Assembly: GCA_025351615.1 (NCBI GenBank)
Contig: JANXVP010000497.1
Span: 1 to 12,398 of the forward strand
Direction: 5' to 3'
Length of the DNA: 12,398 nucleotides
Source: Ramlibacter sp.
Lineage (GTDB): Bacteria; Pseudomonadota; Gammaproteobacteria; Burkholderiales; Burkholderiaceae_C
The notes under the pieces are model-generated. The model did not search any database. It saw only the letters and a list, made by a program, of their open reading frames with translations, and was not told the origin of the DNA. The translations under genes and the position numbers were made by a program. Shown piece by piece: positions 1 through 12,398 of the stretch; position 1 is the stretch's first letter; each line of letters opens with the position of its first letter.

Positions 1-336
1 CCCAAGGAACACAGCGACGCATACTGATCCAGCCGCTTTGTTGACACGAGCAGTGACATCAGCACGAACACTCTTTCGCTCCTGGACGAATCGAGCTGCA
101 TGCGATGTTTGGGGTATCAACCCGCGGTCGATCATGCTAAAAAAGTTACTCTCGCTCTCTGGCCGGGGATTGCGCTCATAGAAGGCGCCCTGGATCGCCC
201 TCAGATACAGCTCTGCTGCTTCCTCATATCTCCCGAGACTGTGGAAGTGAGTTCCCAGAACGTCGCAGGCCGACAGATCCCCCGCTGCTGCCTTTGAAGT
301 GACATCCGCGAGTTGAGAGGGGGACAGGGTCTGCAT
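1..336 (-). CDS. Cassette 3 gene: TPR-like protein, partial (C-terminus off the left edge)
   Basis: The frame opens with ATG at 336-334 and runs 112 codons to the window edge without a stop, so only the N-terminal part is visible. Residues about 27-46 (LGTHFHSLGRYEEAAELYL) fit one tetratricopeptide-type helix pair: the G-Y-x-x-A pattern followed by A-x-x-L-Y. This suggests a TPR or Sel1-like protein-protein interaction protein. No signal peptide or membrane segment is seen. The start lies 18 bases downstream of the GTTAGAC core, as expected for the first ORF of a cassette, and a GGAAG about 8 bases upstream may serve as ribosome binding site. Codon use is less GC-biased than in the chromosomal genes to the right. 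Family assignment rests on one repeat and is tentative; the function is unknown. Confidence 0.7.
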   Translation of the reverse strand, partial: MQTLSPSQLADVTSKAAAGDLSACDVLGTHFHSLGRYEEAAELYLRAIQGAFYERNPRPESESNFFSMIDRGLIPQTSHAARFVQERKSVRADVTARVNKAAGSVCVAVFLG

Positions 337-353
337 GGGGAGGGCTTCCTACG

Positions 354-431
354 GTCTAACGTTTGACATGAGCGGCAGCCTAAAGCGCGCGAAGCGGGCT
401 TTAGGATGTCCGCTCGATGGAAGGGTTAGCC
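354..431 (-). other. attC recombination site of cassette 2 (attC2)
   Basis: Read on the - strand, this 78-base site starts with the R'' core GGCTAAC (431-425) and ends with the R' core GTTAGAC (360-354). Between them is an imperfect palindrome: AGCGG...CCTAAAGC on the left arm pairs with GCTTTAGG...CCGCT on the right arm, leaving a GC-rich terminal loop near 386-397. Conserved outer cores around a sequence-variable but structure-conserved stem are the hallmark of attC (59-base element) sites, which IntI recognises as a folded single strand. The R'' core departs from RYYYAAC at its second base. The stop codon of the cassette 2 ORF lies inside R''. Confidence 0.88.
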
Positions 432-959
432 TCCAGGCGGTGTAGGTGGCCCGGCTTGCGGCAAGTTGGTGACATACATGGGGAGGACGCGCTTGCCTTC
501 CAAAAGCTCAACGGTCATTTCCCGGATTCGGCCCTGCTCGGCTTCCATTCGGCTATGGGCACCCGGCGAGTAGGTGCCATTCTTGATTTGCGTTTTGTTG
601 AAGTCGTAGCCCAAAGCTTTGCCCATCGCGCGAAGCATGTCGACCAGTAGATCGACCCGCCTTGTGCCCCAAGCGCCAGCTTCCATTCCGGTGTTACCCA
701 AGTGATCTAGGTACTGCTGCCACACTTCGAGCACCCTTTTCTCGGCCGGACGCTTGGTAGAAAACTCAAGGTCAATGGAGTTGAGCGCCTCAACATGCGC
801 GGGCGAGAGCGAATACGCCCGCGTGGCCATGAGAGTCTTAAAGATTCTGAGTTTCCTGCTCCGAACTTCGTTTCGGTCGTCCAGATAACGCGTTACCTGT
901 ACAGCGATGAGAGGGCTCACTGCCGTTGCAAGAATTATTAGAACTTCTGTAAGCGTCAC
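426..959 (-). CDS. Cassette 2 gene: membrane-anchored protein, DUF6680-like
   Basis: A 177-residue protein starting at GTG (959-957), 17 bases after the GTTAGCC core that opens the cassette. Residues about 4-21 form one hydrophobic helix, followed by a charged stretch (RYLDDRNEVRSRKLR). This suggests a single N-terminal membrane anchor with a cytoplasmic body. The body carries the blocks FKTLMATRAYSLS-HVEALNSIDLEF (40-66), VWQQYLDHL (79-87), LLVDMLRAMGKALGYDF (104-120) and Y-SPGAHSRMEAEQ (130-142). From memory these match the small DUF6680 family, whose biochemical role is not known to me. The C-terminus is proline/glycine-rich, and the TAA stop is formed by the attC R'' core. Ribosome binding is weak (AGAAAG upstream), so expression probably depends on an upstream integron promoter. 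The reading frame is well supported; the family name is moderately sure. Confidence 0.8.
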   Translation of the reverse strand: MTLTEVLIILATAVSPLIAVQVTRYLDDRNEVRSRKLRIFKTLMATRAYSLSPAHVEALNSIDLEFSTKRPAEKRVLEVWQQYLDHLGNTGMEAGAWGTRRVDLLVDMLRAMGKALGYDFNKTQIKNGTYSPGAHSRMEAEQGRIREMTVELLEGKRVLPMYVTNLPQAGPPTPPGG

Positions 960-975
960 AAGCGGTCTTTCTGGG

Positions 976-1062
976 GGCTAACGTCGGAGCTGACCGGAAA
1001 ACAACCCACGCGGCGGAGCCGCAGCCTGCAGTTGTTTTTCCGTGTCGAGCGACTTGTTAGGC
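976..1062 (-). other. attC recombination site of cassette 1 (attC1)
   Basis: On the - strand this 87-base site begins with the R'' core GCCTAAC (1062-1056) and ends with the R' core GTTAGCC (982-976). The arms fold onto each other: GTCG...CGGAAAAACAAC on the left pairs with GTTGTTTTCCG...CGAC on the right. Several mismatched or extrahelical bases interrupt the stem, as expected for attC, where they set strand choice. The apex contains its own GC-rich mini-hairpin (GCGGC-TCC-GCCGC). Its primary sequence is unlike attC2, so this is not an array of near-identical sites such as Vibrio VCRs. The stop codon of the cassette 1 ORF lies in R''. Confidence 0.92.
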
Positions 1063-1572
1063 AGCATACCGTGCCCCAGCTGCGAAGAACGCCAACAGTG
1101 CGCAACCGAGGGCGAGCAACAATGCTCCTGCTGCTCCCACGCCGAGCACGTGTGATCGAAGATAGGGTGACCACCCGCGGAACAAAAGCGCCTCCTCGGG
1201 ACGCCGCGCGTCGACGTGACAAGTTCGCAGGCGCCCTGCCTTAAGGTCTTCGAACAGTAGCAGTGGCGGTGACCGCGGCCTCATCCATTCAACGTCCAAA
1301 GGAAACACACGCCTAGCCTGAAATTGCCCGCCTTCGCTCGCGAAAGCGTAGCGGACTAGAACCATCGCAGTTCGATCTGTGAGCGCCCCAACAACCGCCT
1401 GTCCCGTCAGATTGTTCGGAACTAAGTTGACATCGATGACGGTCATCGGAAAGGCCGCATAGTGAGCCGTTCGTTCAATGAACCGTGCTTGCGCAATTGC
1501 CACGGTCAGGAGAGTAATGCCGATGAGAACAAGCGTGCCGAAGCAGAACCAAATCTCTGCGTCTATGCCCAT
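1057..1572 (-). CDS. Cassette 1 gene: two-helix membrane protein, DUF3592-like
   Basis: A 171-residue protein from the attI-proximal cassette, the position normally expressed best. Two hydrophobic helices at about 7-27 and 142-164 flank an extracytoplasmic-size domain. That domain contains a 'V-x-Y' strand (VLVRYAFASEGGQFQARRVF, 71-90) and, ahead of the second helix, a G-R-L-x-x-x-x-V-D-x-R-x-P-E-E-A-L-L-F-R-G pattern (113-133). This arrangement matches DUF3592 membrane proteins as I know them; the function is unknown. ATG lies 7 bases after the GTTAGGC core, leaving almost no leader and no good Shine-Dalgarno. The last codon and TAA stop come from the attC R'' box. The ORF fills the cassette, which supports it as real. 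Family call moderately sure. Confidence 0.84.
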   Translation of the reverse strand: MGIDAEIWFCFGTLVLIGITLLTVAIAQARFIERTAHYAAFPMTVIDVNLVPNNLTGQAVVGALTDRTAMVLVRYAFASEGGQFQARRVFPLDVEWMRPRSPPLLLFEDLKAGRLRTCHVDARRPEEALLFRGWSPYLRSHVLGVGAAGALLLALGCALLAFFAAGARYAA

Positions 1573-1579
1573 TGTTGCT

Positions 1580-1640
1580 GCCTAACTCAATGTAGCTCGT
1601 CCAATATCCTGCAAAGACAGGATATCCGCCCGAATATTGC
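1580..1640 (-). other. attI primary recombination site (approximate limits)
   Basis: The core GTTAGGC on the - strand (1586-1580) matches the GTTRRRY consensus exactly and lies immediately ahead of the first cassette ORF. There is no attC-like palindrome directly beside it, as expected for attI, which IntI binds as double-stranded DNA. Crossover is expected between G1586 and T1585. The outer limit is not visible from sequence; accessory IntI-binding repeats usually lie within about 60 bases on the integrase side, so 1640 is an estimate. Confidence 0.85.
1604..1625. repeat. Perfect 8-bp inverted repeat inside attI
   Basis: ATATCCTG (1604-1611) and its exact complement CAGGATAT (1618-1625) flank a 6-base spacer, CAAAGA. 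It sits 17 bases from the attI core, between the core and intI. It is not followed by a T-run in either direction, so it is unlikely to be a terminator. It could be a binding site for IntI or a dimeric regulator, or a hairpin in the cassette leader RNA. Role unknown. Confidence 0.6.
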
Positions 1641-1694
1641 CATCAGATCGACGTAGGCCGGCTAGGCGCAATGCGAGCCAGCCGTTGCCAGATC

Positions 1695-1722
1695 TTGTCA
1701 AGAACGACATACTGTGTTTATT
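1695..1722 (+). promoter_or_regulatory. Candidate intI promoter (Pint)
   Basis: TTGTCA (1695-1700) and TTTATT (1717-1722) are separated by 16 bases, matching the sigma-70 consensus at 5/6 and 4/6 positions. The -10 lies inside the LexA-type box, the arrangement that allows SOS repression of integrases. The predicted RNA start is only a dozen bases before the ATG. An alternative is TTGCCA (1685-1690) with TACTGT (1710-1715), spaced by 19. Confidence 0.5.
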
Positions 1723-1727
1723 GACAG
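1712..1727 (+). promoter_or_regulatory. LexA (SOS) box upstream of intI
   Basis: CTGT-GTTTATTG-ACAG is an exact CTGT-N8-ACAG LexA operator core, preceded by TA and followed by CT. It ends 14 bases before the intI ATG and overlaps the likely -10. LexA control of intI is established for class 1 and Vibrio integrons, where single-stranded DNA stress induces cassette shuffling. The exact match and its position make the assignment strong, though binding is not shown by sequence alone. Confidence 0.82.
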
Positions 1728-1741
1728 CTACGGATTCAGCC

Positions 1742-2788
1742 ATGAAACCCGACCTCCATATTCCACAGCCGCTGCGCCTGCTGGATCAAATGCGTGAGGT
1801 GCTGCGGTACAAACACTATAGCTTGCGCACCGAGCAGGCTTACCTTTACTGGGTGCGTTTCTTTGTTCGCTGGCATGGCCGGGGCGGCACGATGCGGCAC
1901 CCGAAGAGCATGGCCGCAGACGAGGTGCGTGCCTTCCTGACGATGCTTGCGACTGAGCGGAATGTGTCGGTGTCGACCCACAACCAGGCCCTGAGCGCAC
2001 TGCTGTTTCTGTATCGCGAGGTGCTGGGGATGGATCTTCCTTGGCTGCAGGATCTCAAACGCCCAACCCGTCCCCGGCGAATTCCCTCCGTCCTGACGCA
2101 GCCGGAGGTCGTCGCATTGCTCGGCGCGCTGGATGGAGACGTCGCATTGCTCGGCAAGTTGTTGTATGGCACGGGGATGCGTCTGATGGAGGGCCTGCGG
2201 CTGCGCGTGAAGGATGTGGATTTCGACCGGCAGGCCATCATGGTCCGTGAGGCCAAGGGCGGCAAAGACAGGGTGGTGATGTTGCCGCGCAGCCTGCTCC
2301 CATCGCTCAAGGCGCAGCTCGCGGCCGGCCGTGTCCGCTGGGAGCAAGACCGCCAGCGCGGAGCATCCGGCGTCGCAGTGCCCGACGCCCTGGCACTGAA
2401 GTATCCGGATCTGGGGCGGCGGTGGGGATGGTTCTGGGTATTTCCGGCCCCGGCCTTGTCGCTCGATCCCCGCTCGCGCATCGAGAGGCGGCACCATCTG
2501 TATGAAGAGCGTCTGCAACGGGCGATCAAGCTGGCCTGCGCGGCTGCCGGCATTTACAAGCAGGTCTCCGTCCACACCTTGCGTCACTCCTTCGCAACGC
2601 ACCTGCTGCAGGCCGGCACGGACATCCGCACGGTGCAGGAGTTACTGGGCCACAGCGACGTCAGCACGACGATGATCTACACCCATGTGCTGAAAGTCGC
2701 CGGCGGCGGCACAACGAGTCCACTCGATGCACTGTCGACAGCGCTGTCCCCGACCGAGTGCCGCGAACCAGAAGCGCTGTATGCCTGA
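1742..2788 (+). CDS. intI: Integron integrase IntI (tyrosine recombinase)
   Basis: A 348-residue site-specific recombinase that inserts and excises cassettes at attI and attC. An N-terminal SAM-like DNA-binding domain (about 14-105, with [10 protein letters not shown] at 25-34) precedes the catalytic domain. The expected active-site set is intact: R147 (GTGMR), K172, H278 and R281 (HTLRH), H304 (LLGHSD) and the nucleophile Y313 (IYTHV). The stretch about 195-235, with GVAVPDAL and WGWFWVF, is the insertion that separates IntI from XerC/D and helps bind folded attC. The sequence reads like the class 1 IntI1 group, and the residues are offset by one from IntI1 numbering as I recall it. The frame is open back to an ATG at 1637, but that start would place the LexA box and promoter inside the gene and add 35 residues foreign to the family. 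ATG 1742, with a weak CGGA 7 bases upstream, is therefore chosen. Probably functional. Confidence 0.96.
1760..1789 (-). promoter_or_regulatory. Weak candidate cassette promoter (Pc) inside intI
   Basis: On the - strand, TTGATC (1789-1784) and TGGAAT (1765-1760) are 18 bases apart (4/6 matches each). They point towards attI from within the start of intI, where Pc lies in class 1 integrons. A perfect TTGACA (1701-1696) closer to attI is a rival -35 but lacks a good -10. Low certainty; some promoter here is expected because the cassettes have none that I can see. Confidence 0.3.
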
Positions 2789-2807
2789 CCGCGCTTGCCG
2801 CCTCCCG

Positions 2808-4700
2808 CTACATCCCGATGACTTCCTCGAAGCGCTCGACCGCCGTCTCGCCCGCCTGCTGCTGCAGCGCCCACATCTGCGCATAACGGCCGCCCCGGGC
2901 CAGCAACTCGTTGTGGTTGCCGCGCTCCAGGATGCGGCCGGCGTCCAGCACCAGGATCTCGTGCGCATCGACCACGGTCGACAGCCGGTGCGCGATCAAC
3001 AGCGTGGTCTTGTTCTGCGCCGCGCTTTTTAACTCGGCCTGGATCGCGCGTTCGTTGGCCGAGTCCAGGGCCGACGTGGCTTCGTCGAAAATCAGGATCG
3101 GCGGGTTCTTCAGCAACGTGCGCGCGATGGCTACCCGCTGCTTCTCGCCGCCGGAAAGTTTGAGGCCGCGCTCTCCCACCATCGTCTGGTACCCCAACGG
3201 CGTCGACACGATGAAGCCGTGAATGCGCGCGGCGCGGGCCGCCTCTTCCACCTCGGCGCGGCTGGCGCCGGTCCGGCCATAGGCGATGTTGTATTCGACG
3301 GTGTCGTTGAACAGCACCGTGTCCTGCGGCACGATGCCGATCGCCTGCCGCACGCTGGACTGCGTGACTTCGCGGATGTCCTGGCCGGCGATGGTGATCC
3401 GCCCGGTCGGCCATGCGACATTGCCTGGAATGCCGACGTCGTAGAAACGGTAGAGCAGCCGCGCGAGCGTCGACTTGCCCGACCCCGACGGGCCGACCAC
3501 CGCCACCGTCTTGCCGGCCGGGATTTCGAAGCTGACGTCGTGCAGGATCGGCCGCGACGCCTCGTACGCAAAGTTGACGTGCTCGAAGCGAACGGTCGGT
3601 TCGTCCAGGGCGGCGAGCGCCTGCGCTCCCGGCTGGTCGGCGACCTCACGTTCCTTCTCCAGCAGCGCGAACATCTTGTCCAGGTCGGTTAGGCTCTGCT
3701 TGATCTCGCGGTACAGCACGCCCAAAAAGTTCAGCGGGATGTACAGCTGGATCATGAAGGCGTTGACCATCACCAGGTCGCCCAGCGTCATGCGGCCCGC
3801 GACGACACCCTGCGTTGCGCGCCAGAGCATCAGCACCAGGCCGATGGCGATGATCAGTTGCTGGCCGGTGTTGAGCATCGACAGCGTGGTCTGGCTTTTG
3901 AGCCGCGCCTTGCGCAGGCGCTGCAGGCTCTCGTCGTAACGGCTGGCTTCGAAGCCTTCGTTGTTGAAGTACTTGACCGTCTCGTAATTGAGCAGCGAGT
4001 CAACGGCCTTGGTGTGCGCGGCGGAATCGAACTCGTTGGCCTGCTTGCGGTACTTGGTGCGCCACTCGGTGATGCTGACGGTGAAGACGATGTAGAACGC
4101 CAGCGCGATCAGCGTGATCCAGGCGAACCAGGCGTCGAACTTCACGCCCAGGATCGTCAGCACCAGCACCACTTCGATCAGCGTGGGCACGATGCTGAAC
4201 AGCGAATACGAGATCAGCGATTCGATCCCGCGCACCCCGCGCTCGATGTCGCGTGTCATGCCGCCGGTCTGCCGCTCCAGGTGGAAGCGCAGGCTGAGCG
4301 CGTGCAGGTGCTGAAAGGTTTCCAGCGCGATGCGGCGGGCCGCGCCCTGGGTTGCCTTGGAAAAGATCAGTTCGCGCAGCTCGGTGAACAGGGTCGTCGA
4401 CAACCGCAGCAGGCCGTAGGCCACCAGCAGACCGAGCGGAACCACCAGCACGGCGGCGGGGTCCCCAGGTTTGAAGGACATCGCGTCCACCAGTATCTTC
4501 AGCAGCACCGGCACGCCGACGTTGGCCAGCTTGGCGCCGACCATGAACACCAGGGCTCCCACCACCCGCCACTTGTATTGCCAGAGGTACGGCAGCAGCC
4601 GCTGCAGCGTGGCCCAGTCTGATTTGTCGGGACGCGGGCCGGATGCCGGGCTGGCTGGGGGACGACGGGAGGAAGAGGCGGTTTCGCCGGCGCCCCGCAT
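2808..4700 (-). CDS. Atm1-type ABC exporter (fused membrane and ATPase half-transporter)
   Basis: A 630-residue half-transporter that would work as a homodimer in the inner membrane. Six predicted helices (about 46-70, 84-104, 165-185, 190-210, 277-296, 310-331) precede the nucleotide-binding domain. The domain has Walker A GPSGSGKST (403-411), Q-loop Q459, signature LSGGEKQ (515-521), Walker B ILIFDE (535-540) and H-loop H571. NYETVKYFNNE (238-248) is typical of the Atm1/HMT1 branch. Bacterial Atm1 exports glutathione conjugates and thiol-bound metals, and the mitochondrial relative supports Fe-S protein assembly; the exact substrate here is unknown. Residues 423-431 (GIPGNVAWP) look inserted between the Walker A helix and the next strand. 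The frame is open 100 codons upstream, but that stretch is low-complexity and antisense to yciA, so ATG 4700 is chosen, without a clear Shine-Dalgarno. It is divergent from yciA and convergent with intI. Confidence 0.92.
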   Translation of the reverse strand: MRGAGETASSSRRPPASPASGPRPDKSDWATLQRLLPYLWQYKWRVVGALVFMVGAKLANVGVPVLLKILVDAMSFKPGDPAAVLVVPLGLLVAYGLLRLSTTLFTELRELIFSKATQGAARRIALETFQHLHALSLRFHLERQTGGMTRDIERGVRGIESLISYSLFSIVPTLIEVVLVLTILGVKFDAWFAWITLIALAFYIVFTVSITEWRTKYRKQANEFDSAAHTKAVDSLLNYETVKYFNNEGFEASRYDESLQRLRKARLKSQTTLSMLNTGQQLIIAIGLVLMLWRATQGVVAGRMTLGDLVMVNAFMIQLYIPLNFLGVLYREIKQSLTDLDKMFALLEKEREVADQPGAQALAALDEPTVRFEHVNFAYEASRPILHDVSFEIPAGKTVAVVGPSGSGKSTLARLLYRFYDVGIPGNVAWPTGRITIAGQDIREVTQSSVRQAIGIVPQDTVLFNDTVEYNIAYGRTGASRAEVEEAARAARIHGFIVSTPLGYQTMVGERGLKLSGGEKQRVAIARTLLKNPPILIFDEATSALDSANERAIQAELKSAAQNKTTLLIAHRLSTVVDAHEILVLDAGRILERGNHNELLARGGRYAQMWALQQQAGETAVERFEEVIGM

Positions 4701-4727
4701 CAGGGACAATCGGAAGTTGACATCATT

Positions 4728-4734
4728 AGGGGAG
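4728..4734 (+). promoter_or_regulatory. Ribosome binding site that fixes the yciA start
   Basis: AGGGGAG lies 9 bases before ATG 4744. It selects that start over earlier in-frame ATGs, which would run into the divergent exporter gene. Confidence 0.7.
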
Positions 4735-4743
4735 ATTGTGCCC

Positions 4744-5175
4744 ATGTCCACCGAACCAAGCCCCCACCCCACCGATGCCCGCGGCGCCAGCGTCGCCCTG
4801 CCCACCGACAGCGAACTGGTGCTGAAGGTCATTCCCATGCCCGCGGACTGCAACGCCAACGGCGACATTTTCGGCGGCTGGGTGATGGCGCAGGTCGACC
4901 TGGCCGGCTCCGTGATTCCGGCCCGCCACACCGGCGGGCGGATGGCCACCGTCGCCGTGAAGGAATTCATCTTCAAGCAGCCGGTGCGGGTGGGCGACAT
5001 CCTGTCGTTCTATTCGCAGCTCGTTCGTATCGGCCGGACCTCGGTCACGGTGAAGGTGGAGGTTTATGCCGAGCGCTTTCACTCCCAGGGCCAGTACGTG
5101 AAGGTGACCGAGGCTTCTGTCACCTACGTAGCCATCGATGCCAACGGCAAGCCGCGGCCGATCATGAGGGATTGA
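4744..5175 (+). CDS. yciA: YciA-type acyl-CoA thioesterase (hotdog fold)
   Basis: A 143-residue cytoplasmic enzyme expected to hydrolyse acyl-CoA to free acid and CoA, with broad chain-length range in characterised YciA proteins. The block MPADCNANGDIFGGWVMAQ (32-50) is nearly the YciA signature and contains the catalytic Asp (D41). Further matches are the strand block FKQPVRVGD (77-85) and the end YVAID-NGKPRP (128-139). Length fits the single-hotdog YciA family, which forms hexamers. Its first 20 residues are a Pro/Ser-rich extension. Only 43 bases separate it from the divergent exporter gene, so control regions must overlap coding DNA. The stop codon overlaps the end of the crotonase gene on the other strand by 14 bases. 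Confidence 0.92.
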   Translation: MSTEPSPHPTDARGASVALPTDSELVLKVIPMPADCNANGDIFGGWVMAQVDLAGSVIPARHTGGRMATVAVKEFIFKQPVRVGDILSFYSQLVRIGRTSVTVKVEVYAERFHSQGQYVKVTEASVTYVAIDANGKPRPIMRD

Positions 5176-5989
5176 ACTTGCCGTGCCGGCCCTCGCCGCC
5201 GGCGAAGCGGCCGGCGCCTTCGAAGCCGTCGCCGATCCGGTGTTTGCCGCGCTCCCACTCCTGGTGCAGCGCCTGGGCCAGGGGCAGGTCCCACTGACGG
5301 TACGCGCTCATGCGGTCGGCATTCATGGTCGCCTGCGGGAAGGCGCAGAGCTGATTTGCCAGCGCGATGGCCGCCTCTCGCGCCTGTCCCGTCGGAACGA
5401 CGCGGTTGGCCAGCCCCATCTGCAGGGCCTCGGGCGCCTGCACCTTGCGACCGGTAAGGATCAGGTCCATCGCGTGGCCCGTGCCGACCAGGCGGGGCAG
5501 CCGCACGGTGCCGCCATCGATCAGCGGCACGCCGAAGCGGCGGCAGTAGACGCCGAAGAACGCGTCTTCGTCCATCACCCGCATGTCGCACCACAGCGCC
5601 AGCTCCATTCCGCCCGCCACCGCCGCGCCACTGACGGCGGCGATGACGGGTTTGGATAGCAGCAGGCGCGACGGGCCCATCGGTCCCAAGGGCGCGACGC
5701 CACCTTCCGCTGCCATGGCGCCAGGGTCGAAGTCCAGGTCGACCAGCACGCCCGGGCCGCCGCCCTGCCGCGCCATCTTCGCGGCGGCCTGCAGGTCCCA
5801 GCCAGCGCAGAAATGGCCGTTCGCACCGTGAAAAACGGCAACCCGCGCGCTGTCGTCCGCGTCGAAGTCGATGAACGCCTGGTACAGCTCGCGCGCCGTC
5901 AGCGCATCGACTGCGTTGCGCACGTCGGCGCGATCCAGCGTCACGACGGTGACCTGCTCCAGCTTTTCGACGCGCACCGCTTTTTCCAT
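5162..5989 (-). CDS. Crotonase-family protein (enoyl-CoA hydratase/isomerase-like)
   Basis: A 275-residue member of the crotonase superfamily, whose enzymes stabilise an acyl-CoA enolate in an oxyanion hole. HFCAGWDL (59-66) and GAAVAGGMELAL (121-132) supply the two oxyanion-hole segments. E129 aligns with the first hydratase glutamate (rat mitochondrial Glu144). The position of the second (Glu164), 20 residues on, is C149 in VYCRRFGVPLIDGGT. Classical hydratase activity is therefore doubtful; isomerase, hydrolase or other crotonase chemistry is possible. The C-terminus has the RFAGGEGRHG ending common in this subgroup. ATG 5989 is chosen over an in-frame TTG at 6007; neither has a clear ribosome binding site. 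It is tail-to-tail with yciA (14-base overlap) and divergent from the liv operon (98 bases), so a shared role in acyl-CoA metabolism is plausible. Confidence 0.88.
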   Translation of the reverse strand: MEKAVRVEKLEQVTVVTLDRADVRNAVDALTARELYQAFIDFDADDSARVAVFHGANGHFCAGWDLQAAAKMARQGGGPGVLVDLDFDPGAMAAEGGVAPLGPMGPSRLLLSKPVIAAVSGAAVAGGMELALWCDMRVMDEDAFFGVYCRRFGVPLIDGGTVRLPRLVGTGHAMDLILTGRKVQAPEALQMGLANRVVPTGQAREAAIALANQLCAFPQATMNADRMSAYRQWDLPLAQALHQEWERGKHRIGDGFEGAGRFAGGEGRHGKFNPS

Positions 5990-6087
5990 GCGCCGATTAC
6001 ACCGCAATCCGCACCAGTCAGGGGCGTGAAAATGGCAGTGCGTGGGGACAACCCTGTACCGGGCGGCGCATTCCCGCAGCTATAACC

Positions 6088-6996
6088 GTGACGACAACCA
6101 ACGACCGGGCCCGTCCATTGCTGCAATTCATTCAACTGGTGATCAGCGGCATCGCGCAAGGGTGCATCTACGGGCTAATCGCGCTGGGATTCGTGCTGAT
6201 CTACAAGGCCACCGAAACCGTCAGCTTCGCCCAAGGCGAGCTGATGATGCTGGGGGCGTTTTGCGGCCTGGCATTGATGTCGCTGTTCGGCTTTTCGTTC
6301 TGGCTGGCGGTGCTGGGCGCGATCGTTGCCATGGCGCTGTTCGGCATGCTGCTCGAGCTGGCCGTGATCCGTCCGATCCTCGGCCAGCCCGCCTTCTCGA
6401 TCGTGATGCTCACCATCGGCATCGGCTATGTGGCGCGCGGCCTGATCACCACCATTCCCGGCATCGGCACCGAAACCCACACCCTGCCTGTGCCGTACAA
6501 GGACCAGGTGTGGAGCGCCGGCCCGCTGCTGCTCAACGCCGAGCAGATGGTGGTGATCGGCGCCACCGCCGTGCTGTGCCTGCTGTTGTTCGCAGTGTTC
6601 CGCTACAGCAAGGTCGGCATCGCGATGCAGGCCACGTCGCAAAACCAGCTCGCCGCCTACTACATGGGCATTCCGGTGAAGAAGCTCAACACGCTGGTGT
6701 GGGGCCTGGCGGCCGCAGTCGCCGCCGTTGCCGGCCTGCTGCTGGCACCGATCACTTTCGTGCACGCGAACATGGGCTTCATCGGACTGAAGGCGTTTCC
6801 GGCCGCGGTGGTCGGCGGCTTCGGCAGCCTGCCTGGCGCCATCGTCGGCGGGCTGGTCATCGGCATCGTCGAATCGCTCTCAGGCTTCTACCTGCCCGAA
6901 GGTTTCAAGGACACGGCCGCGTACATCGTGGTGTTGGTGATGCTGATGGTCAAACCGAACGGGTTGTTCGGGGAGAAGCTGAGAAAAAAGGTCTAG
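6088..6996 (+). CDS. livH: LivH-type ABC transporter permease
   Basis: A 302-residue inner-membrane permease of the branched-chain amino acid (HAAT) ABC importer family, pairing with the LivM-type permease. Hydrophobic helices fill the chain. The N-terminal ISGIAQGCIYGLIALGFVLIYKATE region and the FAQGELMMLGAF block (47-58) are classic LivH. The cytoplasmic loop GIAMQATSQNQLAAYYMGIP (177-196) is the ATPase-contacting loop, and VVGGFGSLPGAIVGG (241-255) precedes the last helices. Translation appears to start at GTG 6088, which lacks a good Shine-Dalgarno; no upstream in-frame ATG exists before the divergent gene. A TATAAC just before the start has no matching -35, so I cannot name a promoter in 5990-6087. 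It is the first gene of the operon. Confidence 0.92.
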   Translation: MTTTNDRARPLLQFIQLVISGIAQGCIYGLIALGFVLIYKATETVSFAQGELMMLGAFCGLALMSLFGFSFWLAVLGAIVAMALFGMLLELAVIRPILGQPAFSIVMLTIGIGYVARGLITTIPGIGTETHTLPVPYKDQVWSAGPLLLNAEQMVVIGATAVLCLLLFAVFRYSKVGIAMQATSQNQLAAYYMGIPVKKLNTLVWGLAAAVAAVAGLLLAPITFVHANMGFIGLKAFPAAVVGGFGSLPGAIVGGLVIGIVESLSGFYLPEGFKDTAAYIVVLVMLMVKPNGLFGEKLRKKV

Positions 6997-7003
6997 ACCT
7001 TGT

Positions 7004-7043
7004 GTGACAGACCAAGAATTGCGGAGCAATTTTGCTCTGTCAC
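7004..7043 (+). repeat. Long hairpin between livH and livM
   Basis: GTGACAGA (7004-7011) pairs exactly with TCTGTCAC (7036-7043). Inside, AATTGC (7017-7022) pairs with GCAATT (7026-7031) around a GGA loop, with a G-T pair and small bulge between the two stems. There is no T-run after it, so it is not a classical intrinsic terminator. It could be an mRNA-stabilising hairpin that sets livH/livM ratio, or a dispersed REP-like palindrome. Two nested perfect arms make chance unlikely. Confidence 0.75.
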
Positions 7044-7083
7044 CAACGCCTTGTCCTTCTGATATTTTTCCTGCTGATTAAAT

Positions 7084-8160
7084 ATGCGATTCATCTTCAA
7101 GACCGACTACGGCCAGGACATCAAGCTGGCGCGCCACGGCGGCCATGTGTTCTGGTATGGCGCGCTCGGGCTGCTGCTGGTCGCCGCGCCCTGGGTCGTT
7201 CCGGAATACTGGCTGGCGCAACTGACATTCGTGCTGATCTACGGCATCGTCGGACTCGGCCTGATGCTGCTGGCCGGGTTCACAGGCCTGTTCTCGCTCG
7301 GCCATGCAGCCTTCCTGGGAGTCGGCGCCTACACCCAGGCCTACCTCACCAGCCACGCCGTTCCCTTCCCGATCGCGCTGGCCGGTGCAGCCGCGCTGTC
7401 GGCAGTGGTCGGGGTTGTGGTCGGCCTGCCGGCACTGCGGGTGAAGGGCATCTACCTCGGTATAGCGACCTTGTCCTTCGGCTTCATCGTCGAGGAAGTT
7501 TTCGCACGCTGGGAAAGCGTCACCGGCGGCAACGCCGGCAAACGCGTGGCGGCGCCGGAGCTGTTCGGCTGGTCGCTGGGCTCCGGCGGCGCCTTCTATT
7601 TTTTGTGCCTGGCGATCGCGGTGGTCGCGACACTGGCTATTCTCAACTTGTTGCGCTCGCCGACTGGCCGCGCCTTCGTCGCCATCCGCGACTCCGAAAT
7701 CTCGGCGCAGAGCATGGGCATCCACCTCGCGCGTTACAAGACGCTGTCGTTCGCCCTGTCGGCGGCGCTGGCCGGCATCGGCGGCGCGCTTTACGCGCAC
7801 AAGCTGCAGTTCATTTCGCCCGACCAGTTCAACATCCTGCAATCGATCGACCTGTTGCTGATGATCGTGGTCGGCGGCCTGGGCTCGGTGCACGGCGCAT
7901 TTCTGGGCGCCATCTTCCTGATCTCGATGCCGCAACTGATCTCGCTGACCAAGGACCATCTGCCCCCGGTGATCGGACAGGCGCCCGGGCTGCAGTCCGT
8001 GGTGTATGGCGCGGTGCTGATCGCCTTCGTGCTGTTCGAGCCGCTTGGCATCTACGGCCGCTGGCTGAAGATCCGCACCTGGTTTCAGCTGTTTCCGTTC
8101 TACCGCAAGGGCCTGTTCAAGCGGCAGAAGAGTTTCACCAGATCGGACAGGTTGAGATGA
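7084..8160 (+). CDS. livM: LivM-type ABC transporter permease
   Basis: A 358-residue inner-membrane permease, partner of LivH in the importer channel. Helices begin at about 24. GFTGLFSLGHAAFLGVGAY (65-83) is the LivM signature, with GLPALRVKGIYLGIATLSF (114-132) and the ATPase-contacting loop from about 193 to 213 (RAFVAIRDSEISAQSMGI). The C-terminal tail after 340 is basic and cytoplasmic. A leader of 87 bases with a strong hairpin separates it from livH, and no clear Shine-Dalgarno precedes ATG 7084. Its TGA overlaps the livG ATG (ATGA at 8157-8160), indicating translational coupling. Confidence 0.93.
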   Translation: MRFIFKTDYGQDIKLARHGGHVFWYGALGLLLVAAPWVVPEYWLAQLTFVLIYGIVGLGLMLLAGFTGLFSLGHAAFLGVGAYTQAYLTSHAVPFPIALAGAAALSAVVGVVVGLPALRVKGIYLGIATLSFGFIVEEVFARWESVTGGNAGKRVAAPELFGWSLGSGGAFYFLCLAIAVVATLAILNLLRSPTGRAFVAIRDSEISAQSMGIHLARYKTLSFALSAALAGIGGALYAHKLQFISPDQFNILQSIDLLLMIVVGGLGSVHGAFLGAIFLISMPQLISLTKDHLPPVIGQAPGLQSVVYGAVLIAFVLFEPLGIYGRWLKIRTWFQLFPFYRKGLFKRQKSFTRSDRLR

Positions 8161-8996
8161 GCGCGCCGTTCCCTCGCCAGGCCCCGGACGAACCGGGAGC
8201 CGTTCTGCTGTCGGCCAAAAACCTCAGCGTTCGTTTCGGCGGCGTGCTGGCCGTCAACAACGTCAGCTTCGACGTCAAGCGCGGCGAGGTATTCACGCTG
8301 ATCGGCCCCAACGGCGCGGGCAAGACGACGGTCTTCAACCTGATCAGCCGCATCTACACGCCGACCGCGGGCAGCATCGAATTCGCCGGCCAGGTCCTGA
8401 CCGACCAGCCGCCGCACAGGATCGCCTCGCTCGGCATCGCGCGCACCTTCCAGAACATCGAACTGTTCGAGCACGCCACGGTGCTGCACAACCTGTTGAT
8501 CGGCCGGCATACCCACAGCCGCAGCGGCATCTGGAGCGAGATGCTCTTCACCGGCAAGGTGCGCCGGGCCGAACTCGCGGCCCGCGAAAAGGTGGAGCGC
8601 ATCATCGAGCTGCTGGACCTGCAGCACCACCGGGATGCGATGGTGGCAGGCCTGCCGTATGGCGTGCGCAAGGTGGTGGAGATGGCGCGGGCGCTGTGCA
8701 CCGAGCCCAGGCTGCTGCTGCTGGACGAACCGTCGTCGGGCCTGAACGTGGAAGAGACCGACGACATGGCGTTCTGGATCCAGGACATCCGGCATGAACT
8801 GGGCATCACCGTGCTGATGGTGGAACACGACATGAGCCTGGTCTCCAAGGTGTCGGATCGGGTGCTGGCGATGAATCAGGGCGAAGTGCTGACGACCGGC
8901 ACGCCGCGCGAGGTGCAGAACGATCCCGGCGTGATCGAGGCCTATCTCGGCTCCGTCGAAGACGTGGCGTCACTGCGCCGGGAGGCCGGCTTATGA
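8157..8996 (+). CDS. livG: LivG-type ABC transporter ATPase
   Basis: A 279-residue ATPase that powers the importer together with LivF. Motifs in order: Walker A GPNGAGKTT (50-58), Q-loop Q99 in ARTFQN, degenerate signature LPYGVRK (166-172) as is normal for LivG, Walker B LLLLDEP (186-192), and H-loop H224 in VEHDMSLV. NQGEVLTTGTP (240-250) and VIEAYLG (259-265) are the usual LivG C-terminal marks. The start is the ATG that overlaps the livM stop; the frame is open far upstream inside livM, but that stretch is out-of-frame shadow. The stop overlaps the livF start by ATGA (8993-8996). Confidence 0.95.
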   Translation: MSAPFPRQAPDEPGAVLLSAKNLSVRFGGVLAVNNVSFDVKRGEVFTLIGPNGAGKTTVFNLISRIYTPTAGSIEFAGQVLTDQPPHRIASLGIARTFQNIELFEHATVLHNLLIGRHTHSRSGIWSEMLFTGKVRRAELAAREKVERIIELLDLQHHRDAMVAGLPYGVRKVVEMARALCTEPRLLLLDEPSSGLNVEETDDMAFWIQDIRHELGITVLMVEHDMSLVSKVSDRVLAMNQGEVLTTGTPREVQNDPGVIEAYLGSVEDVASLRREAGL

Positions 8997-9781
8997 CCGT
9001 GCCCATCACCGACCAGCCGGTCCTTAAACTGATGAACGTCGAGTCCGCCTACGGGCCGGTCAAGGCGATCCGCGGGGTCAGCCTGCAGGTGCGGCGCGGT
9101 GAAATCGCGACGGTGCTCGGCTCCAACGGCGCCGGCAAGAGCACGATCCTGAAAACGATCTCCGGCATCATCGACCCGCGCAAGGGAAGCATCGAATTCA
9201 AGGGCAGTCCGATCACCGCGCGAGACCCGGCCTTCATCGTGCAGCAAGGCCTGTCGCACGTGCCAGAGGGACGCGAAGTTTTTGCGCTGCTCAGCGTGCG
9301 CGACAACCTGGCGATGGGCGCCTACACCCGAAGCGACCGCGATGGCGCGGCCCGGGACATGGAAACCGTCTTCGGCTACTTTCCGATCTTGCGCGAGCGC
9401 GCCACGCAGCACGCAGGGCTGCTGTCTGGCGGCCAGCAGCAGATGTTGGCAATCTCGCGCGCGCTGATGGCGGCGCCCGACCTGATCCTGCTGGACGAGC
9501 CGAGCCTGGGACTGTCGCCCAAGCTGACCCGCGAGATCTTCGAGATCGTGGTGCGAATCAATCGCGAGCGCGGCACCACCATCCTGCTGGTGGAGCAGAA
9601 CGCCAACATGGCGCTCAACGCCGCGGACTACGGATATGTCCTGGAAAATGGACGCATCGTGATGGAAGACACCTGCGCCAGGCTGCGTGACAAGGACGAC
9701 ATCAAGGAGTTCTATCTCGGCATGAAGGAAGCCGGCGTGCGCGGCGAGCGGCGCTGGAAGAAGAAGAAGAACTGGCGATGA
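8993..9781 (+). CDS. livF: LivF-type ABC transporter ATPase
   Basis: A 262-residue ATPase, second subunit of the nucleotide-binding pair. Walker A GSNGAGKST (43-51), HVPEGREVF (89-97), signature LSGGQQQ (144-150), Walker B LILLDEP (164-170). The H-loop position carries Gln (VEQN, 200-203), which is standard in LivF. The end is unusual: after EFYLGMKE the chain continues into a basic tail, GERRWKKKKNWR (251-262), beyond the usual LivF terminus. The start ATG overlaps the livG stop, and the last bases overlap a short downstream mini-ORF. Confidence 0.94.
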   Translation: MTVPITDQPVLKLMNVESAYGPVKAIRGVSLQVRRGEIATVLGSNGAGKSTILKTISGIIDPRKGSIEFKGSPITARDPAFIVQQGLSHVPEGREVFALLSVRDNLAMGAYTRSDRDGAARDMETVFGYFPILRERATQHAGLLSGGQQQMLAISRALMAAPDLILLDEPSLGLSPKLTREIFEIVVRINRERGTTILLVEQNANMALNAADYGYVLENGRIVMEDTCARLRDKDDIKEFYLGMKEAGVRGERRWKKKKNWR

Positions 9782-9804
9782 ACGACGACTCTGACAGCCC
9801 ATGA
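9778..9804 (+). other. 8-codon mini-ORF bridging livF and the ligase gene
   Basis: ATG 9778 overlaps the livF TGA (ATGA). The frame reads MNDDSDSP and its TGA (9802-9804) overlaps the ATG of the ligase gene (ATGA at 9801-9804). The ligase start has no visible Shine-Dalgarno, so ribosomes finishing livF could be handed on through this peptide. It may equally be chance: no homology can be judged in 8 residues. Confidence 0.35.
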
Positions 9805-11657
9805 GCAACCTCTGGAACCTTTCCGGCCTCCAGCCCGAGACGCGCATCGTCCTCGAGGGCGAAACCATTCCGGCAATGTTCTGGAACGGCGTCGCCAAGC
9901 GCGGCGAGCAGGTCTGGATGCGGCAGAAGCAGCTGGGCATCTGGCGCGCCTGGAGCTGGACGCAGACCGGCAACGCGGTGCGCGAGGCTGCGGGAGGCCT
10001 GCTGGCGCTGGGCTTCCAGCCCGGCGATACCGCCTCCATCCTGTCCAACACCGTGATCGAATGGGTGCTGGCGGACATCGCGGTCCTGTCTTGCGGCGGC
10101 GTCTCCAACGGCATCTATCCGACCGACGCGGCGTCGCAGGTGCATTACCTGTGCGAGGACTCCGTCACCAGCATCCTGTTCGTAGAAGACGACGAGCAGC
10201 TCGACAAGGCGCTCGAAGTCCGCCCGCAATTGCCCGGCCTGAAGAAGATCGTCGTCTTCGACATGGAAGGCCTGCGCGACCTCGACGACGCGGACGTGAT
10301 CAGCTTCGACCGCTTGCGCGAGTTGGGGCGCGAGTACAACGCCGCACATCGCGAGGCGGTGATGGAGCGAGTCCGCGCCTGCCGGCCGCAGGACCTGGCG
10401 ATCCTGGTCTACACCTCCGGCACCACCGGCAAGCCCAAGGGTGCGATGCACAGCCACAAGGGCCTGGTCTACACCGTCCATGGCTACAACACGCTGGTGG
10501 CGCAGGACGAGCGCGACGAGCGCATGTGCTTCCTGCCGCTGTGCCACATCGCGGAGCGCATGGGCGGCGAGTACCACGCGCTCTACACCGGCGCCATCCT
10601 CAACTTCGTCGAGAATCCGGAAACGGTCCCTGAGAACGTGCGCGAGATTTCGCCCACGGTCTTCACCGCCGTGCCGCGCGTCTGGGAGAAGTTCTATTCC
10701 GGCGTGATGATCGCGCTGAAGGAATCCAGTCCGCTGCAGCAAGCCGCCTACGGCTGGGGCATCGGCGTCGGTACGCAGATCGCCGCCCAGGTGCTGGCCG
10801 GCGAAGCCGTCGGCAGTTTCCTGAAGTTCAAGTTCACGCTGGCGCGCTGGATCGCACTGAACAACGTGCGCAAGATGATCGGCATCCACCGCTCGCGTTT
10901 CCTGGTCACCGGCGCCGCGCCGATCTCGCCCGATCTGGTGAAGTGGTACCTGGCGCTGGGCGTCCCGATGCTCGAGGTCTGGGGCATGACGGAGTCGTGC
11001 GGAGCCGCAACGGGCGTGCCAGCGACGCGCATGAAACCCGGCTCGATCGGCCCAGCCGCCTCTTACAACGAAGTGAGGCTCGACCCGGCCACCGGCGAGA
11101 TCCTGGTGCGCGGCGGCAATGTCTTCATGGGTTACCTGAACCTGCCGGAAAAGACTGCCGAGACCATCGATGCCGACGGCTGGCTGCACACCGGCGACGT
11201 CGGGCTGATGGACGATGAAGGGTTCTTCCGCATCACCGACCGGATGAAAGACATCATCATCACGGCGGGCGGCAAGAACATCACGCCCAGCGAGCTGGAG
11301 AACGAGCTCAAATTCTCGCCCTACATCACCGACGCGGTGGTGACCGGCGACAAGCGGCCCTACCTGACGGTGATCGTGATGATCGACCAGGAGAACGTCG
11401 AGAAGTTCGCGCAGGACAACGACGTGCCGTTCGGCAACTACGCCAGCCTGACGCGCGCGGCCGAAGTGCAGGCGCTGATCCAGGCCGACCTCGACCGCGT
11501 GAACAAGAAGTTCGCGCGTGTCGAGCAGATCAAGAAGTTCTGGCTGCTCGACATGCAGCTCAGTGCCGAAGACGAGGAACTCACGCCCACGCTCAAGCTC
11601 AAGCGCAAGCTCGTCGAGAAGAAATACGCCACGCAGGTCGAGGCCATGTACCGCTGA
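9801..11657 (+). CDS. Long-chain-type acyl-CoA synthetase (AMP-forming)
   Basis: A 618-residue adenylate-forming ligase expected to activate a carboxylic acid with ATP to an acyl-AMP and then to acyl-CoA. The P-loop YTSGTTGKPKG (204-214) is complete. Others are GAAPIS (371-376), WGMTES (394-399), GWLHTGD (460-466, D466 binds ribose), TDRMKDIIITAGGKNITP (479-496, R481) and a C-terminal lysine in LTPTLKLKRK (594-603), probably K599. The length and the extended middle part fit the COG1022 long-chain group rather than the short FadD group. Its position between livF and a periplasmic binding protein suggests it acts on the imported substrate; chain length or aromaticity cannot be read from sequence. 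Starts at an ATGA overlap; 33 bases follow before the next gene. Confidence 0.93.
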   Translation: MSNLWNLSGLQPETRIVLEGETIPAMFWNGVAKRGEQVWMRQKQLGIWRAWSWTQTGNAVREAAGGLLALGFQPGDTASILSNTVIEWVLADIAVLSCGGVSNGIYPTDAASQVHYLCEDSVTSILFVEDDEQLDKALEVRPQLPGLKKIVVFDMEGLRDLDDADVISFDRLRELGREYNAAHREAVMERVRACRPQDLAILVYTSGTTGKPKGAMHSHKGLVYTVHGYNTLVAQDERDERMCFLPLCHIAERMGGEYHALYTGAILNFVENPETVPENVREISPTVFTAVPRVWEKFYSGVMIALKESSPLQQAAYGWGIGVGTQIAAQVLAGEAVGSFLKFKFTLARWIALNNVRKMIGIHRSRFLVTGAAPISPDLVKWYLALGVPMLEVWGMTESCGAATGVPATRMKPGSIGPAASYNEVRLDPATGEILVRGGNVFMGYLNLPEKTAETIDADGWLHTGDVGLMDDEGFFRITDRMKDIIITAGGKNITPSELENELKFSPYITDAVVTGDKRPYLTVIVMIDQENVEKFAQDNDVPFGNYASLTRAAEVQALIQADLDRVNKKFARVEQIKKFWLLDMQLSAEDEELTPTLKLKRKLVEKKYATQVEAMYR

Positions 11658-11690
11658 CCGCACTTTCCACCACCTCAACGGAGACCCGCC

Positions 11691-12398
11691 ATGAAACCCG
11701 TGCTGACCCCCATCACCACTCTGCTGGCCACCCTGCTGGCTGCAATCGCCGGCACCGCCTTCGCCGCCGAACAACAAGGCGTGAGCAAGACCGAGATCGT
11801 CATCGGTTCGATCCAGGACCTGTCGGGCCCGCTCGCCGGCTTCGGCAAGCAGATCAGGAACGGCATGCTGCTGCGCGTGGACGAAATCAACGAGCAGGGC
11901 GGCGTGAACGGCCGCAAGCTCAAGCTGCTGATCGAGGACTCGGGTTACGACCCGAAGAAGGCGGTGCTCGCAGCGCAGAAGCTCGTCAACCAGGACAAGA
12001 TCTTCATCATGGCCGGCCACCTGGGCACGGCCCAGAACAACGCGGCCATGCCGGTGCAGTTCGAGAAGAACATCATCAACTTCTACCCGGTGACGGCGGC
12101 CCGCGAGATGTACGAGCCGTTCAACCGCCTCAAGTACGCTTTCGCCGCCACCTACTTCGACCAGATGCGCGGCGCGGTGCCGAAAATGGTCAAGGAAAAG
12201 GCGGCGAAGAAGGTCTGCACGATCTACCAAGACGACGAGTTCGGGCTCGAAGTGGTGCGCGGCGCCGAGGCGGGGCTGAAGACGATGGGCGTGGAGTTCA
12301 CTGAAAAGACGAGCTACAAACGCGGCGCGACCGACTTCTCTTCCCAGGTGGCGCGCATGAAGGCGGCGGGCTGCGACTTCGTGGTGCTGGGCACCATC
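11691..12398 (+). CDS. Periplasmic binding protein of the Liv-type importer (partial)
   Basis: The frame starts at ATG 11691, with GGAG (11680-11683) 7 bases ahead, and runs 236 codons to the right edge without a stop. Residues 1-25 are a Sec signal peptide (LLATLLAAIAGTAFA, cleavage likely after AFA). The mature part is a type I periplasmic binding fold (Peripla_BP_6, LivJ/LivK-like): IVIGSIQDLSGPLAGFGKQ (36-54), INEQGGVNGRKLKLLIED (67-84), YDPKKAV (86-92) and FAATYFDQMRGAV (151-163). It should capture the ligand and deliver it to LivHMGF. About 130-150 residues are likely missing, judging from family length. Family members bind amino acids, amides, urea or aromatic acids. The usual ligand-contact segment near AGHLGTAQN (108-116) looks unlike the Ser/Thr-rich version in LivJ, which agrees with a non-amino-acid ligand but does not prove it. 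Confidence 0.93.
   Translation, partial: MKPVLTPITTLLATLLAAIAGTAFAAEQQGVSKTEIVIGSIQDLSGPLAGFGKQIRNGMLLRVDEINEQGGVNGRKLKLLIEDSGYDPKKAVLAAQKLVNQDKIFIMAGHLGTAQNNAAMPVQFEKNIINFYPVTAAREMYEPFNRLKYAFAATYFDQMRGAVPKMVKEKAAKKVCTIYQDDEFGLEVVRGAEAGLKTMGVEFTEKTSYKRGATDFSSQVARMKAAGCDFVVLGTI

Follow-up and report, generated by a model that had tools for sequence, protein, structure and literature searches.

The 12,398-nucleotide stretch analyzed here (the window, positions 1-12,398), which is the entire contig C351 of a Ramlibacter sp. assembly, holds an intact integron integrase gene, a LexA-type box, an attI site, two attC sites, and cassettes in the correct order and orientation, all at a chromosomal address shared with relatives. 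Taken jointly, these parts leave us highly confident that the best explanation of the whole is a conventionally built chromosomal integron in a Burkholderiales genome resembling Ramlibacter. Judged by its sequence, the platform is apparently intact and working. An initial annotation of this DNA had proposed a chromosomal-type integron with an intact integrase, and had placed an SOS box, attI, two complete cassettes, and a partial third in correct geometry. Every one of those parts was found, and the integrase family scores, the two attC sites, and the shared address bear out the overall description. The integron is ordinary and of a known kind; the history of its address is moderately interesting. 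The features are as follows.

1..359, minus strand: cassette 3, start only; gene at 1-336, first 112 amino acids, cut by the contig end
354..431, minus strand: attC of cassette 2
360..981, minus strand: cassette 2; gene at 426-959, 177 amino acids, DUF6680
976..1062, minus strand: attC of cassette 1
982..1585, minus strand: cassette 1, crossover to crossover; gene at 1057-1572, 171 amino acids, no family by itself
1580..1640, minus strand: attI region, read from the sequence, outer limit approximate; crossover in GTTAGGC between 1586 and 1585
1685..1713, plus strand: promoter-like site for intI
1712..1727, no strand assigned: LexA-type (SOS) box, CTGT-N8-ACAG
1742..2788, plus strand: intI, integron integrase, 348 amino acids, intact
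2808..4700, minus strand: ABC-transporter gene (PF00664 and PF00005), the address marker, converging on intI

Integrase, recombination sites, and cassettes

The intI reading frame runs without an internal stop from an ATG at 1742 to a stop that ends at 2788. Its product passes both integron integrase models, scoring 438.4 bits with TIGR02249 (cut-off 265) and 440.4 bits with NF011946 (cut-off 435). Identity as XerC or XerD, a placement that the initial annotation had named as fatal to its proposal, was ruled out by the family models, the scores being 148.7 bits against a cut-off of 329.6 for XerD and 147.5 against 335.15 for XerC. The best match in the PDB is IntI4 (2a3v; E, 1.5e-82; residues 14 to 330 aligned), and the alignment runs through a stretch around residue 248 that is missing from XerC/D and that we take to be the integron-specific stretch. 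With the TIGR02249 score, this marks the protein as an integron-type tyrosine recombinase. The motif residues R147, H278, R281, H304, and Y313, presumably the catalytic set, are all present. The nearest sequences to the window IntI are the metagenome proteins P0001 (97% identity), P0002 (92%), and P0003 (89%).

Both attC sites were recognized by a covariance model, R1, built from 25 attC sites adjoining intI in relatives and none from the source genome. The attC of cassette 2 scored 71.1 bits (E, 1.1e-16) and that of cassette 1 scored 43.7 bits (E, 1.2e-9), so the absence of model hits that would have undone the initial annotation did not arise, and its coordinates, 354-431 and 976-1062, proved exact. 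In an unfiltered search of five stretches totaling 42 kb, the eight attC sites of the source genome scored at least 41.7 bits, and the best match outside an attC, at 12.7 bits, was the opposite strand of one of them. Both window sites lie on the minus strand behind minus-strand genes, in the same direction and in register.

On the integrase side of the array, the attI crossover heptamer GTTAGGC occupies 1586-1580 on the minus strand. The block beside it can be aligned with sequence preceding intI in five of the seven clade relatives compared (L054, L055, L057, L060, and L062), whose integrases share a 22-row clade with that of the window; it was not seen in the other two, L058 and L078, whose contigs start less than 140 bases before intI. 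The LexA-type box stands 14 bases before the intI start and is the single match in the window, where 0.12 were expected in 12.4 kb (one or more appeared in 20 of 200 shuffles). Among the seven aligned relatives, the strict box recurs at the same place in L057 and L060, a looser CTG-N10-CAG is found in L055, and the other four have no box there. The promoter-like site for intI, a 9/12 consensus match and weak evidence alone (one found against 0.3 expected), is the only one in 1560-1860, and its second hexamer overlaps the box by two bases. SOS control of intI is a likely reading of this arrangement. By established integron biology, IntI would act on double-stranded attI at 1586/1585 and on the bottom strand of attC in its folded form, and such attI x attC recombination would let the platform take up and release cassettes. 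The box would tie this exchange to DNA damage, and reading of the cassette genes would run along the minus strand, leading away from attI.

The cassettes had been described as new and as unlike antibiotic resistance genes. The latter stood, since Pfam and NCBIfam searches assigned no cassette protein to a resistance family; the former held only in part, because the cassette 2 protein belongs to a named family, the cassette 1 protein has relatives, and cassette 3 is cut off. The cassette 1 protein has no Pfam match, and a search with it returned seven rows, itself and six relatives at 45 to 63% identity; one of four relatives scanned passes for DUF3592 and one more matches below the cut-off. 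An identical protein is present in the protein set as P0121, whose longest contig is 2,517 bases, not 12,398, so this cassette may also sit on another contig. The cassette 2 protein scores 182.2 bits with PF20385 (DUF6680; cut-off 23.2), a family of unknown function for which a literature search found no paper, and it has 699 relatives among 755 candidates. The family is sparse, in 6 of 299 family genomes with the source genome counted. An attC adjoins the DUF6680 gene in three of five other loci (L242, L245, and L246) and not in the remaining two, which argues that this gene moves repeatedly as a cassette. The cassette 3 protein gave weak TPR-like matches below the cut-off.

As the initial annotation had noted, the array reaches the left edge of the window, where cassette 3 is cut. 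A search with window positions 1-2900 found no overlapping contig end in the source assembly to extend it leftward; the three places matched in its own genome were the window itself, an attC on contig C382, and a distant recombinase. An Rfam scan of the window gave a single chance match and nothing relevant, and a tRNA scan found no tRNA.

A shared address with several integrase lineages

The intI and ABC-transporter genes lie tail to tail with 19 bases between their stops. Thioesterase, enoyl-CoA hydratase, and liv genes follow the ABC gene in the same order in loci L093, L094, L096, L102, and L116. Of the 60 genus genomes, 52 yielded the ABC gene, and intI converges on it within 2.4 kb in 12 of the 60 (G000, G005, G011, G016, G019, G020, G023, G029, G034, G039, G042, and G043), G034 having only a 102-residue integrase piece at a contig end. 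On the right side, then, the window shows a shared neighborhood and no adjoining mobile-element genes, as a sedentary chromosomal integron should; its left side is the contig end. No empty site could be defined, as 18 genomes whose ABC gene has no intI beside it vary in the genes that come next, some species sharing one. In one genome without an intI match (G050, L239 6835-8589), three attC sites follow the ABC gene at a distance of 3.3 to 5 kb; these are perhaps cassettes left after loss of the integrase.

A false join between intI and the ABC gene, making the contig an assembly chimera, deserves consideration, given that the assembly is fragmented (3.86 Mb in 583 contigs, 91.1% complete, 2.65% contamination) and that the integrase relatives at 89 to 97% sit on short contigs. 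We regard this as very improbable: the same convergent neighbors occur in 11 other genus genomes, and the ends of the intI and ABC matches are separated by just 29 bases in G043 and by 49 in G020, so a chimera would need that exact joint.

The 11 full-length integrases at this address fall into at least three lineages. Lineage A at the ABC gene is the window; lineage B comprises G005, G011, G019, G023, G029, G039, and G042 (support, 95/96); and lineage C comprises G016, G020, and G043 together with rows from elsewhere, with moderate support (91/82). A single clade for the ten first-sampled integrases at the address was rejected in the approximately unbiased test (p-AU, 5.6e-5). The decisive comparison is between the window and G039, which are sisters in the ABC tree (100/99) with ABC genes 90% identical; their integrases share 73% identity and fall in lineages A and B, respectively. 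Holding the two integrases together (the window, its two near rows, and L084) was rejected at a p-AU of 0.0014, and a clade of the window, L084, and L102 at 1.8e-7. In the 11-row ABC tree most of the remaining forks are open, and so only this pair carries weight. For it, the ABC and IntI trees disagree, contrary to an integrase that descends with its host. This disagreement limits the description "sedentary by descent" and not the description "chromosomal." The G034 piece is near lineage A but fills only 29% of the columns and decides nothing.

These trees suggest that platforms were replaced at one fixed address. The platform at the window address differs from that of its nearest relatives, and an exchange of integrase and attI probably took place as the genus evolved. 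Exchange of the two together is the simplest account, since the attI block follows lineage A and since, on the intI side, DNA of the window and L084 can be aligned only from position 1774 onward. That the address on the 3' side of the ABC gene was taken over by different platforms at least twice, with integrase and attI swapped as a unit, seems to us about evenly balanced between true and false. A competing account, that the three lineages are old side-by-side duplicates lost unevenly, we hold to be somewhat unlikely. It gains from G023, whose integrase at the ABC gene belongs to lineage B while another, from lineage A, lies elsewhere, so that genomes can carry two, and from a passage of a genome review that lists intI paralogs among the causes of conflicting trees (PMC2426708). 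Yet no genome among the stretches fetched has two integrases side by side at the ABC gene, and the lineage A genes in G023, G025, G035, and G056, three of the four partial or broken, sit in stretches without it. Near the truncated intI in G056, a reading frame (L249 556-1917, complement orientation) resembles a group II intron reverse transcriptase.

Several points weigh against our account of the window and its address. The far end of the array is beyond the contig end, and the minus strand of 1560-1860 has no sigma-70 consensus for a cassette promoter. The clade-test p-values are optimistic, since the groups were chosen once a first tree had been inspected, and a 130-row quick tree puts L084 and L091 apart from the rest of lineage B. 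Should replacement nonetheless be true, the stable integron unit in the genus would be the address and not the integrase. Ramlibacter would then be a natural series in which to ask whether resident cassettes are usable by a newly arrived integrase, and the case would bear on the movement of integrons and cassette pools between hosts.

Occurrence among relatives and attC sites elsewhere in the genome

Integrase matches were found in 35 of 60 genus genomes (E <= 1e-60 was applied to the wider family sample, with 137 of 299 genomes matching, and E <= 1e-40 to the genus). With 35 genus genomes matching, the window integron is ordinary, and what it adds for the genus is a complete, apparently intact platform. 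Relatives' arrays are long, with 103 attC matches in 15 of 20 loci searched. According to a passage of a review, complete integrons occur in about 10% of betaproteobacterial genomes (PMC8618304). Literature searches showed no paper that its title marks as dedicated to Ramlibacter integrons, and none was found for sedentary chromosomal integrons with Comamonadaceae, subscription literature being mostly outside these searches; a paper on dfrB genes (PMC11662351) is among the matches listed for the genus with integrons. As a separate observation, a Pectobacterium zantedeschiae plasmid integrase (L111 8311-9321) is nearly the same in the tree as that of a Burkholderiaceae metagenome-assembled genome (L119), which points to a likely transfer between orders.

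The source assembly has at least six further attC sites on four other contigs: one on C382 (L006 525-602), three on C3 (L143 1070-1171, 1512-1601, and 1994-2084), one on C105 (L144 8593-8685), and one on C37 (L145 3873-3953). The count is a lower bound, as 150 of 4,388 first-look candidates were scored and a ninth match (E, 0.37) was dropped. These contigs have no intI; the neighbors are an isochorismatase-like gene, a DUF4345 gene, a GNAT acetyltransferase gene, and small genes without a family. The chromosomal genes beside the six sites were not found beside intI in 24 compared loci of relatives, and the G005 array, followed to its end, has no flank in common with the four contigs. Unlinked to the window contig, the six sites may be the rest of the array, integrase-less clusters, or contamination. 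The G011 array contains two frames of 356 amino acids (L150 3403-4473 and 5222-6292) with the same beginning and the same short flanking sequence, presumably transposases of the IS110/IS1111 type; elements of this type enter attC sites. Passages of a study of Xanthomonas genomes describe attC clusters without intI elsewhere in the genome, a likeness to the source genome (PMC12444791).

Comparison with known integrons

The initial annotation had read the integrase as belonging to the IntI1 branch and the integron as a possible environmental relative of class 1, and had called for a phylogeny with IntI1. That phylogeny went against it. IntI1, taken from one plasmid, is 61.7% identical to the window IntI over 321 residues and is closer to L053 (73.7%), L050 (72.3%), and L047 (71.5%). 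In a 46-row tree, built without IntI2, IntI3, and published chromosomal class 1 rows, IntI1 groups with L053, L050, L186, and L125; the window IntI sits in a 39-row clade (100/98) that excludes IntI1, and a tree constrained to join the two loses 145.7 log-likelihood units (p-AU, 5.2e-87). We take class 1 membership to require near identity to IntI1, a level that the window IntI does not reach. It is true that both integrases lie within the broad Burkholderiales part of the tree, and that a passage of a review locates the ancestor of class 1 integrons on a Burkholderiales chromosome (PMC8618304); set against the identities, the separate clades, and the rejected joining, the idea that the window is an environmental form of the class 1 lineage, or nearly its ancestor, is scarcely credible. 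The window thus resembles a class 1 integron in general build, differs from it in integrase and in having no resistance gene in its two complete cassettes, and adds nothing on the origin of class 1 integrons.

The closest likeness is to the sedentary chromosomal integrons of Burkholderiales, in the soil/freshwater integrase group, with which the window shares integrase family, attI, attC type, non-resistance cassettes, and address; it differs in that the integrase lineage at the address is unlike that of its nearest hosts. Many lateral integrase transfers are described for Shewanella (PMC9229058). For the Xanthomonas integrons at ilvD, the study cited above describes a fixed chromosomal address and one case of integrase substitution, in X. 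arboricola clade B, where the integrase came from another source (PMC12444791). Those integrons are like the window in both respects and differ in host order, in address, and in their mostly vertical descent, whereas the Ramlibacter address has at least three lineages among 11 integrases.

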